DNA from: Candidatus Thorarchaeota archaeon
GTDB taxonomy: Archaea > Asgardarchaeota > Thorarchaeia > Thorarchaeales > Thorarchaeaceae
DNA: 32,614 nt
Assembly (NCBI GenBank): GCA_029858305.1
Contig: JAOUFI010000022.1
Location: 1-32,614, forward strand
Direction: 5' to 3'
Under the pieces are notes generated by a model that searched no databases, had not been told where the DNA came from, and was given only the letters and a program-made list of their open reading frames with translations. A program made the position numbers and the translations under genes. Of this stretch, positions 4,670 through 7,495 are shown one piece after another (within the stretch, counting starts at the first letter, position 1; the number at the start of each line of letters is the position of its first letter).

Positions 4670-6490
4670 TCAGCTTCCCTTTCCAACATAGTAATAGTCG
4701 CCAGAAGCCTTCTGCTGGGAGTCCAACTGGGATCCATCCTTGTTGACCCGGGGGCGACCAGTCTGGGGGTCTCGACGAAATGTCACACCCATCTGTTTCA
4801 GGAAGTTGTTCATACCAGTACGTAGAGTAGTGACTGACGAAGCTACGCCAGATTTTCCAGGAGTTCCATTGAACACAACCATACTATCACTAAGATAGTC
4901 GGCCATGAGAATGGAGTGTTCTACAACGAAGGCAGTCTTTAGGTTGTTACGAACCTGTCTTCGTATCGCTCGAGAGCTCGCAAGCCGCTGCTCAACATCC
5001 AAGAATGCAGAGGGTTCATCTAGAAGGTAGATATCAGCGTCGCGCGCAAGACAAGCCGCAATAGCAGCTCTCTGGAGCTCGCCACCGCTGAGCTGTTGAA
5101 TACTGTGATCAAGCAAGTTTTCAAGTTCAAGCTTCTTAATCACCCCGGTCTGGAAATCAGCTGAATCGATTGTATTTCCGCCAGCTTCACGAAGGTACAT
5201 TCTCAAGTTTCCATCAAAGTCGGCGGGGATATATTGCGGTTTGTAACTGATCTTGAGGTCAAGTCCTGTTACAGTCTTCTTTGGTGCCTCTCCTTGGTCT
5301 GGTACTAGCTCTCCTGCCAGCATACGGACAAATGTGGTCTTTCCAATACCATTAGGTCCAAGAATGCCAATGACCTGACCCTTCGATACACGACTACCTT
5401 TGACCTCAAGCGTGAAGTCTTCGAATTCCTTTCGCATGTTTCCATACTCGATCATAGTTTCAGTAGAAGTAAACTCAATGTCTTCTGTTGACATGCCCTT
5501 GAAGGAGATCGAGGTGTCTCTGAATCGCATATTCTCATCAGGAATAAAACCATCAAGGAACTGATTCACGCCCACACGTGTCCCATGAGGATGTGACACA
5601 ATTCCGTAGACTCCCGGAGTACCATAAAACAGACACACATTATCTGATACATAATCAAGAATTGATAGGTCATGTTCTACAACTACCACAGTCTTCCCAA
5701 GATCCGCCAAGTGGCGAATTGCTCTACCAACTCGCAGCCGCTCTCGAACGTCAAGATACGCAGTAGGCTCATCAAAGAAGTATATATCCCCCTCACGGAC
5801 AATGGCAGCAGTGACGGCTACCCGTTGTAATTCGCCACCACTGAGGAACTTGATAGGACGATCCCAAATCTCATCGAGGCTCATGTCGCCTCTAAGATCC
5901 TTCAGTCGCCCCGAGGAGTCAGACGATTCCAAAAGGTCACTAATGGGACGTTCAGCTATATCCTTAACCTTGGGCAGGTCTGTAATATTCTGTGGTTTGA
6001 GAATTGGAACAATAGAGCCAGCCATAATCTTCTCAAAGAACGGTTGAAGTTCAGACCCACGATATGCTCTGATGATCTCCTCCCAATCTGGGGGGGATTC
6101 CACTTGACCAAGGTTGGGTTGTAATTCTCCTGCAAGAATTCGCACTGCAGTTGTCTTTCCTACACCATTAGGACCAATCAAGCCAAGGACCATACCCTCC
6201 TTTGGAATGGGAAGCCGAAACAGTTTGAAGCCATTAATACTGTATCTATGACTTGTATCAGACTCAAGCTCCTCTGGAAGGTTGACTATGCTGATTACGT
6301 GATACGGACATTTCTTGACACAAATTGCCTCTCCAGAGCAGAGAGATTCTACGATGACTGGCGGCTTGTCTTGTCCATCGGGAAAGATGACAGTTTCGTC
6401 CCCTGTTCGCACACGAGGACAAAATCTCTGACATTCGTGAGTGCAGTCCTTAGGTCGGCACCGCTGTCTATCTAAAATAGCAATACGCAT
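4670..6490 (-). CDS. abce1: Ribosome-recycling ATPase ABCE1 (RLI)
   Basis: A 606-residue twin ABC ATPase with an N-terminal iron-sulfur domain, which splits terminated ribosomes after release factor action. Order: first cysteine cluster C11, C16, C20, C24; second cluster C51, E54, C57, C61; NBD1 with LIGPNGVGKTT, LSGGELQR and DEPTAYLD; the hinge region; NBD2 with LGPNGIGKTT, LSGGELQR and DEPSAFLD; then the conserved C-terminal TFRRDPQTGRPRVNKDGSQLD. Overall length and layout match the family. The odd point is the sixth of the eight cluster cysteines, replaced by Glu (CSGEAIC where CxxCxxC is expected). The ATG at 6490 is chosen over a GTG four codons upstream because the family begins MRIAILD. 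The H-loop of NBD2 reads VEHS rather than VEHD. Confidence 0.97.
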   Translation of the reverse strand: MRIAILDRQRCRPKDCTHECQRFCPRVRTGDETVIFPDGQDKPPVIVESLCSGEAICVKKCPYHVISIVNLPEELESDTSHRYSINGFKLFRLPIPKEGMVLGLIGPNGVGKTTAVRILAGELQPNLGQVESPPDWEEIIRAYRGSELQPFFEKIMAGSIVPILKPQNITDLPKVKDIAERPISDLLESSDSSGRLKDLRGDMSLDEIWDRPIKFLSGGELQRVAVTAAIVREGDIYFFDEPTAYLDVRERLRVGRAIRHLADLGKTVVVVEHDLSILDYVSDNVCLFYGTPGVYGIVSHPHGTRVGVNQFLDGFIPDENMRFRDTSISFKGMSTEDIEFTSTETMIEYGNMRKEFEDFTLEVKGSRVSKGQVIGILGPNGIGKTTFVRMLAGELVPDQGEAPKKTVTGLDLKISYKPQYIPADFDGNLRMYLREAGGNTIDSADFQTGVIKKLELENLLDHSIQQLSGGELQRAAIAACLARDADIYLLDEPSAFLDVEQRLASSRAIRRQVRNNLKTAFVVEHSILMADYLSDSMVVFNGTPGKSGVASSVTTLRTGMNNFLKQMGVTFRRDPQTGRPRVNKDGSQLDSQQKASGDYYYVGKGS

Positions 6491-6640
6491 CTGATGTATC
6501 ACACCTGCTGAAGAGCTGTTCGAAGAGGGTTATGGTCACTATTTAGCGCTTTGGCTCTGTGAACTCTTATTTGTATGAAAATTGTCTACTTGGAAAGCCT
6601 TTTGTGCAATCCCGCATTGATTATATTTGGATTGAATAAG

Positions 6641-6874
6641 ATGAACATACTAGATAGATTCTTCGACATGTTTGGAAGAAGACGTGCACTTAGGATGGGT
6701 GCTGTATCACCACCAGATGATCTCATTGCTTACCTCTACAAAGTACGCGCTGCAACCTACCTAAAGATTACAGGAAAGACTCTTCCAAACTATAGCATGC
6801 CAGCTGAGAGTGGTGCCGAAGATATGACTCGAAACCTATCACCCTCTCGTAGACTTGCTAGAAAGGGTCTCTAG
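6641..6874 (+). CDS. Small protein of unknown function
   Basis: A 77-residue reading frame, not recognised. It opens MNILDRFFDMFGRRRALRMG, a basic amphipathic stretch, followed by PPDDLIAYLYKVRAATYLKITGKTLP and a polar, basic tail ending RRLARKGL. No membrane segment, cysteine pair or known motif is visible. An in-frame start at 6575 would add 22 mostly hydrophobic residues, but ATG 6641 is the better start: a TATA-like TTATATTT at 6621-6628 lies just upstream. No clear ribosome binding site is seen. It is divergent from ABCE1 and precedes a C/D box sRNA on the same strand. Codon use looks like its neighbours, so it is probably a real lineage-specific gene. Confidence 0.5.
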   Translation: MNILDRFFDMFGRRRALRMGAVSPPDDLIAYLYKVRAATYLKITGKTLPNYSMPAESGAEDMTRNLSPSRRLARKGL

Positions 6875-6922: not shown

Positions 6923-6938
6923 TTGAAAGCATATTTAG
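6923..6938 (+). promoter_or_regulatory. BRE/TATA promoter of the C/D box sRNA
   Basis: Purine-rich TTGAAAG (6923-6929) followed by ATATTTAG (6931-6938). The expected start, about 25 bases downstream of the TATA centre, falls near 6960, three bases before the terminal stem of the sRNA. This makes an independent small-RNA transcript likely. Confidence 0.55.
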
Positions 6939-6962: not shown

Positions 6963-7039
6963 ATCGGGATGATGATGAATGCAGGGATGGTGAGCGAACT
7001 CATCACCGCTATGACCCGTTAAACCGCAGTCTGACCGAT
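6963..7039 (+). ncRNA. C/D box sRNA, predicted guide for 16S rRNA 2'-O-methylation
   Basis: Box C ATGATGA (6969-6975) and box D CTGA (7031-7034) are closed by an exact 5-base stem, ATCGG (6963-6967) with CCGAT (7035-7039), leaving one base before box C as the kink-turn expects. Just upstream of box D, the guide GTTAAACCGCAGT (7018-7030) has 11 consecutive bases complementary to CUGCGGUUUAA, a conserved stretch of archaeal 16S rRNA (recalled, not searched). The fifth-base rule places methylation on the C equivalent to E. coli 16S position 952. A C'-like ATGACCC (7011-7017) lies 13 bases before box D; box D' is degenerate (GTGA at 6990 or CTCA at 6999), and a small hairpin sits in the middle. 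Fibrillarin, Nop5 and L7Ae would act on it. Confidence 0.72.
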
Positions 7040-7078: not shown

Positions 7079-7495
7079 TTGTCCCCATTTGTTTGTAACC
7101 ATGATGGTTCGTGTGAAGAGATTAGACTCTGTTGTACTGAAACAGAGATGACCCTATCTCGTGAGGATGCACAAAGAATTGAGTCATTAGGTTACAAAAA
7201 GGAAGATTTCCTAGTCAGAGTGATGGCAGGATTTTGTGAACTCAAAAACGTCGACGGACACTGTTACTTCTATGATCCTGAATCTAAAGTCTGCCGCATC
7301 TATGAGAATCGTCCGGAGGGGTGTAGGTACTACCCTATCATCTATGATGCTAGGAAGAGGAAGTGCATCCTTGACAAGGATTGTCCATCTGCGGTGACAG
7401 TCAGTCGCGAAGAAATCAGGAAGGTCTGCCATAGGGTGAGAAAGCTTGTAGAGACCCTTCGAGAGGAGGCTGCGCATGGTGAGAGCCCTTGCTGA
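7079..7495 (+). CDS. YkgJ-family cysteine-cluster protein (Fe/Zn-chelating domain)
   Basis: A 138-residue protein of the YkgJ/UPF0153 type, thought to bind zinc or an iron-sulfur centre through several conserved cysteines. The pattern is visible: FVCNHDGSCEEIRLCC at the N-terminus, FCELKNVDGHCYFYDPESKVCRIYENRPEGCRYYP in the middle (the C-x-I/V-Y-x-x-R-P-x-x-C-R-x-Y/F-P signature), and DCPSAVTVSREEIRKVC near the end. It begins with TTG. Its 3' end overlaps the next gene, a PHP phosphoesterase, by 20 bases, so the two are translationally linked and head an operon of four genes. Biochemical role unknown; proteins of this family are often close to RNA- or tRNA-related enzymes, which agrees only loosely with the RNase at the end of this operon. 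Confidence 0.85.
   Translation: MSPFVCNHDGSCEEIRLCCTETEMTLSREDAQRIESLGYKKEDFLVRVMAGFCELKNVDGHCYFYDPESKVCRIYENRPEGCRYYPIIYDARKRKCILDKDCPSAVTVSREEIRKVCHRVRKLVETLREEAAHGESPC

Follow-up and report, generated by a model that had tools for sequence, protein, structure and literature searches.

A conserved probable box C/D guide RNA gene of Thorarchaeota with predicted 2'-O-methylation targets in 16S rRNA

The stretch of DNA analysed here, referred to as the window, comprises 32,614 nucleotides of a Candidatus Thorarchaeota contig. Within it, an element of 77 nt, counted stem to stem, is flanked by a small conserved ORF and by a gene for a CxxCxxCC-domain protein, whose product matches PF03692 (E 4.2e-12). 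The small ORF itself lies beside an ABCE1-like gene, a position conserved in many relatives, and the 77-aa part of it that begins at the second ATG matches no Pfam family. The element had been predicted to be a C/D box sRNA, and box C, box D and a 5-bp closing stem are all present in kink-turn (k-turn) order at the places where the original prediction had put them (Table 1), with covariation in the stem. When both strands of the window were scanned for a box C followed 30–70 nt later by a box D, with at least four of five stem pairs, two sites were returned, this element and one other, which is itself a conserved C/D candidate. That second candidate is overlapped by a match in 20 of the 47 genomes of the class, its own included, and 9 of the 12 loci compared share the D guide GACCTTAGGGGTAT.

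Table 1. Features of the candidate guide RNA locus and of its surroundings in the window.
Feature	Position	Strand	Remarks
ABCE1-like gene	4670–6502	minus	
Small conserved ORF	6575–6874	+	99 aa
TATA-like element ATATTTA	6931–6937	+	about 30 nt upstream of the closing stem; from the sequence; A/T hexamer in 22/32 copies
Box C/D sRNA gene, stem to stem	6963–7039	+	covariance model R1, 92.5 bits; 33/47 class genomes
Closing (k-turn) stem, 5' strand ATCGG	6963–6967	+	changes on both sides in 4/5 pairs, 32 copies
Box C ATGATGA	6969–6975	+	invariant in alignment A1; 22/22 relatives found by similarity
C–D' interval with D' guide	6976–6989	+	6981–6989, GCAGGGATG, pairs with own 16S 1350–1358; predicted target C1354 (E. 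coli 1382)
Box D' GTGA	6990–6993	+	alignment A1
D'–C' stem-loop	6994–7009	+	GCG 6994–6996 with CGC 7007–7009; 93.8% of cells paired
Box C' GCTATGA	7008–7014	+	GTGATGA in 17/32 copies
C'–D interval with D guide	7015–7030	+	7018–7029 pairs with own 16S 916–927; predicted target C919 (E. coli 952)
Box D CTGA	7031–7034	+	invariant in alignment A1
Closing stem, 3' strand CCGAT	7035–7039	+	covaries
CxxCxxCC-domain gene	7079–7495		PF03692
Second C/D sRNA candidate	20273–20203	minus	stem GGCGGC/GCCGTC, box C GTGATGA, D' GTGA, C' AATGATC, box D CTGA

A DNA search of 59 genomes recovered 22 relatives of the element (E ≤ 7.7e-8), and the matches were mostly confined to the element, which is conserved as a block with diverged flanks. 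All 22 of these relatives, which were found by DNA similarity alone, retain both boxes C and D as well as the core of the D guide. Our alignment A1 contains 32 distinct copies: the one in the window, the 22 just named and a further 9, returned by a pattern search that required both boxes and the D guide core; because some copies came from a pattern demanding them, the invariance of the boxes and of the guide in A1 is partly built in. Applied across genome contigs, the same pattern matched 67 stretches, of which 31 have archaeal and 36 bacterial titles. The covariation of the closing stem, in which both sides have changed in four of the five pairs, was reached by none of 500 shuffles on four of five measures and by 4 of 500 on the fifth. 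When the closing stem and the D'–C' stem are taken together, 89.8% of the cells are paired, compared with a shuffled mean of 80.6%, and 0 of 500 shuffles came as high. Since the block is conserved between diverged flanks and its closing stem covaries, the element is not a chance motif. A covariance model built from A1, R1, finds one copy each in 33 of the 47 class genomes and no match in the remaining 14, and among 227 genomes of the phylum it gives 33 matches at 63.8 bits or more, the next one standing at 26.5 bits; nearly all of these copies were already in A1, so that the counts measure spread and not independent discovery. The R1 matches below 30 bits filled 44 rows, of which 18 were inspected by eye; one genome among them (G229) has a clean C/D element, and the rest were unconvincing. 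No Rfam family matches the element at gathering scores; the best weak match, Giardia GlsR16 (E 0.054; 20.3 bits compared with a gathering score of 100), was taken as chance. Folding of the whole RNA was no better than that of shuffles, 103 of 200 of which fold as well.

The D guide forms 12 pairs with the 16S rRNA of its own genome, 10 of them consecutive Watson-Crick pairs, with a wobble at each end. The original prediction had claimed pairing over 11 consecutive bases of a conserved archaeal 16S stretch; the site and the pairing stand, and it is the target sequence and the helix that differ, since the organism's 16S, which reads CUUGCGGUUUAAUU from position 915, has CUUGCGGUUUAA, so that guide position 2 makes a G-U pair. 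That prediction was to be given up if the 16S of the same organism were without CUGCGGUUUAA. Taken literally it is without it, but the difference is of one base only and turns a G-C pair into G-U. At this very 16S base, 27 of the 32 copies have an A in the guide and thus a Watson-Crick pair, the other 5, that of the window included, having G. The base opposite D guide position 5 is C919, which the alignment of the own-genome 16S places at E. coli 952, as had been predicted for the methylated C, and the pair there is Watson-Crick. With its 10 consecutive pairs the guide passes the rule of nine consecutive Watson-Crick pairs, position +5 included, as it is set out in passages of Dennis et al. 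(2015; PMC4644070). In all 32 rows of A1 the pairing with the target runs from guide position 2 to position 10 or beyond, a count partly built in by the pattern-found copies. A further contact, of the adjacent ACCCGTT with AACGGGU a few bases upstream in 16S, had been suggested as well; this does not survive, as the own 16S has ACAAGGGGU at that place, and, besides, the guide bases in question vary among relatives and both contacts are impossible in one antiparallel duplex.

How much weight the match in the window can bear by itself is a matter of numbers. A score as good as that of the window's D guide was found somewhere in 16S plus 23S for 260 of 5000 shuffles and for 11 of the 377 CTGA sites of the window, its own site included; for the family consensus D guide, the score was equalled by 24 of 5000 shuffles. 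A second script gave 20 of 300 shuffles for the window and 1 of 300 for the consensus. The window's own guide–16S match alone is weak evidence, and it is conservation that carries the case.

The original prediction did not include the D' guide, nor the 16S site that it probably targets. This guide forms nine pairs with own 16S (CGUCCCUGC), one of them a wobble, and places C1354 opposite its position 5 in a Watson-Crick pair. Its core is kept in 28 of the 32 copies, and in relatives the duplex extends to as many as 12 pairs with two wobbles, the copies of one genus (g4) having nine consecutive Watson-Crick pairs. In the window the duplex has seven consecutive Watson-Crick pairs, which is below the nine-pair rule given in passages of Dennis et al. 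(PMC4644070). The score of the window's D' guide was equalled by 365 of 5000 shuffles and by 44 of the 275 GTGA sites of the window; that of the consensus D' guide, by 9 of 5000. In 8 of the 32 rows one base is missing and box D' lies one base nearer, and the target would therefore move by one C. In four Thorarchaeota copies (L093, L036, L047 and L054; 4/32) the D' guide has been replaced and the rest of the element kept. A search for new targets of these four returned several weak matches in 16S and 23S, none convincing; no 23S was found for L036, and of the 16S of L054 only the 3' end was found.

The internal part of the element departs from the original description on two points. Box C' had been called degenerate, and yet it reads GTGATGA in 17 of the 32 copies. 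A long hairpin within the guide region, GAUG/CAUC, had also been noted, and it shows no covariation, its score being reached by 196 of 500 shuffles and its proportion of paired cells by 350 of 500. What does covary is a stem of 3 bp, GCG/CGC, within the 14-nt D'–C' interval: 11 cells are changed on both sides, and 0 of 500 shuffles came as high on either measure. The outer pair of this stem is GC in 12 copies, AU in 10, GU in 8 and something else in 2. Because the 3' strand of the stem runs into the start of C', the D'–C' module would be without a bulge; the alternative register that leaves a 3-nt bulge, slid by –3, pairs 15.2% of cells compared with 93.8%, and was rejected. The archaeal C/D sRNAs described in passages of PMC7994747 have a k-loop here, instead of which the present element would have this bulge-less 3-bp stem between D' and C'.

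Taking together the boxes, the covarying stem, two guides that are each complementary to the 16S of this organism, the conservation and the presence of a fibrillarin gene in its genome (one match, E 2.4e-90), we propose, with a probability that we would put at about 0.88, that 6963–7039 is a Thorarchaeota gene for a box C/D guide RNA. The predicted effect of this RNA is 2'-O-methylation of 16S rRNA, at C919 through its D guide and, probably, at C1354 through its D' guide. In the scenario that we consider, the TATA-like element some 30 nt upstream would drive transcription, and the RNA would fold into a C/D k-turn to be bound by L7Ae. The L7Ae-bound RNA would then recruit Nop5 and fibrillarin, and the resulting RNP would methylate the rRNA nucleotide that faces guide position 5, counted from box D or D'.

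The two predicted sites lie about 435 nt apart in the 16S sequence. We take E. coli 952 to be in helix 30 and 1382 to be in the linker into helix 28, that is, in neighbouring elements of the head and neck. With the sites neighbours in the secondary structure, one RNP might also hold both strands during folding. Let us assume, then, that the C/D RNP binds 16S mainly as a folding chaperone, with both guides pairing and one or both sites left unmethylated. Two targets that are far from each other in sequence and neighbours in the secondary structure would suit such a role, and passages of PMC4644070 describe a proposal of this kind for sR15 and sR17 of Nanoarchaeum equitans, which are reported to target strands of helix 30 and helix 28 of 16S and to assist in their folding. 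By secondary structure, these would be the same parts of 16S as the present D and D' targets. According to the same passages, each of the two RNAs binds both strands of one helix, whereas here one RNA would take a strand of helix 30 and the helix 28 side. Against a mainly chaperoning function stands the Watson-Crick pair of the +5 base at both sites, and we think it very unlikely that this is the main role of the RNP.

The surroundings of the element bear on how it is expressed and on what else it might be. At the place of the TATA box that had been predicted at the right distance there is a TATA-like sequence, and a hexamer of A/T only, found 26–33 nt upstream of the stem and thus at a nearly fixed distance, accompanies 22 of the 32 copies and is missing in 10; according to a review, 20% of the archaeal C/D genes studied have a TATA-like motif. 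No run of five or more T occurs within 110 nt downstream in any of 33 sequences (0/33), so that cotranscription with the CxxCxxCC gene is plausible and the RNA may arise by processing of a longer transcript. Conservation between the same genes in related genomes, named beforehand as a check, was found: the element is followed by the CxxCxxCC gene, in the same orientation, in 30 of the 32 copies, the other two being L093, which is without it, and L054, of which 53 nt of downstream sequence are available.

Such linkage would also be expected if the element belonged to the 5' leader of the CxxCxxCC gene and acted in cis, as a k-turn that L7Ae binds to control translation of this gene, with an incidental match to 16S, and passages of PMC5539422 and PMC6298567 report leader control by L7Ae for the L7Ae mRNA. 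We consider this very unlikely, and it is disfavoured by a double dissociation. The genome G027 has the element and no CxxCxxCC homologue in 4.4 kb downstream, where a convergent ORF is found instead, and the genome G008, of the same genus, has the gene, 88% identical, without the element, R1 finding no match up to E 10 on its 19.9-kb stretch. The tie to the controlled gene that a leader k-turn would be expected to show thus fails in these two genomes, the linkage holding otherwise in 30 of 32 copies. Conservation also extends to the guides next to the boxes, for which a leader k-turn would have no need, and the comparable elements of another Asgard family, f28, to which we turn below, are without these neighbours in the stretches examined (4/4). 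As to a chance arrangement of boxes combined with a chance 16S match, the window's guide–16S match alone does fall within the range of shuffles, but block conservation with diverged flanks, stem covariation and occurrence in 33 of 47 class genomes leave it negligible.

Four of the five genomes of family f28 carry a C/D-like element with box C, box D and the same D guide (L201–L204, from G225, G226, G228 and G229; L071, from a Sigynarchaeum, has the G226 sequence), and a reversed-pattern control for this D guide search found 0 of 227 genomes. Their D guide core, AAACCGCAG or AACCGCAGG, stands before box D as in the Thorarchaeota, and therefore the same C would be the predicted target. In G229, for which the one full f28 16S was found, the 16S reads CCUGCGG, with C opposite guide position 2, where the guide has G. 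The D' guide differs from that of the Thorarchaeota element, being GGCGTTG, complementary to CAACGCC about 15–19 nt downstream in 16S. The G229 element also has a compact layout unlike that of the Thorarchaeota copies, with D' CTGA, a 6-nt gap and C' ATGATGA. We liken these elements to the Thorarchaeota one by the D guide, which is not a claim of homology; R1 gives them only 17.6–26.5 bits.

If the guide is used, its loss might perhaps free the target to change. The D target could be read in 10 of the 33 genomes with the element and in 8 of the 14 without an R1 match, these being genomes of family f1. The 10 with the element have UUGCGGUUUAA without exception. Among the 8 R1-negative genomes, the UUUAA beside the D target is changed in three, to UUCAA in G008 and G026 and to CUCAA in G030 (L114, L111 and L109, respectively), and the target is unchanged in the other five. 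This difference, 0 of 10 compared with 3 of 8, gives a one-sided Fisher p of 0.069 with relatedness ignored. The pairing energy of the consensus guide is –14.8 kcal/mol with the G008 target and –11.9 kcal/mol with that of G030, compared with –18.8 kcal/mol for the usual target; in G027, which has the element, the D target is unchanged. We read this apparent co-loss of guide and target as a hint, not proof.

Several relatives have short inserts in 16S, mostly of 28–30 nt, hairpin-forming and at several conserved sites (L107 of G018, L114 of G008, L117 of G016, L112 of G031, L113 of G015, L115 of G022 and L109 of G030); in G018, G008 and G016 one of them sits inside the D' target, after the position that corresponds to 1358 in the own 16S. 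These inserts may be mini-introns. In the genome of the window, about 69 kb separate the 16S gene (L001), which is archaeal, from the 23S gene (L128) on one contig, C205, and the two are thus unlinked.

With the archaeal C/D sRNAs of Dennis et al. (2015), as passages of PMC4644070 present them, the element shares the boxes C, D', C' and D, the closing k-turn stem, the two guides, the +5 rule and targets in 16S. It differs from them in its between-box guide intervals of 14 and 16 nt, which exceed the 10–12 nt that are usual, not strictly defining, for archaeal guides, and in the 14-nt D'–C' interval with its covarying 3-bp stem; despite the 16-nt interval, the paired part of the D guide is 10–12 nt long. 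Its overall length compares with an archaeal range of about 50–70 nt in passages of PMC7994747. A literature search found no paper on Asgard C/D sRNAs, with a search phrase that may miss "C/D" written with a slash and with subscription journals mostly uncovered. There are no Asgard guide sequences in passages of PMC9932318 and PMC8481954, Asgard archaea are not treated in passages of a survey of C/D sRNAs from seven species, and the words Asgard, Thorarchaeota and Lokiarchae are absent from the text of the review. The element is a new yet ordinary addition to the known C/D class, and the original prediction was right on its identity and on its main target.

A bolder scenario may be worth stating, doubtful as we hold it to be. 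The element might be a guide RNA of ancient Asgard origin by which helices 30 and 28 of 16S are joined within a single RNP, its bulge-less 3-bp C'/D' stem replacing the k-loop as a step towards the looser layout of eukaryotic snoRNAs, and its loss freeing the 16S target to mutate. If true, this would give a natural series of guide–target co-loss inside one archaeal family. Irrespective of such details, the element family amounts to a concrete prediction of a methylation site in the 16S rRNA of archaea closely related to eukaryotes. The kept D guide, the D' guide swapped in some lineages and the apparent natural losses are material for comparison. The finding agrees with what is known of these guides, namely a rapid turnover in which one arm is retained, and leaves the view of C/D RNA function unchanged.
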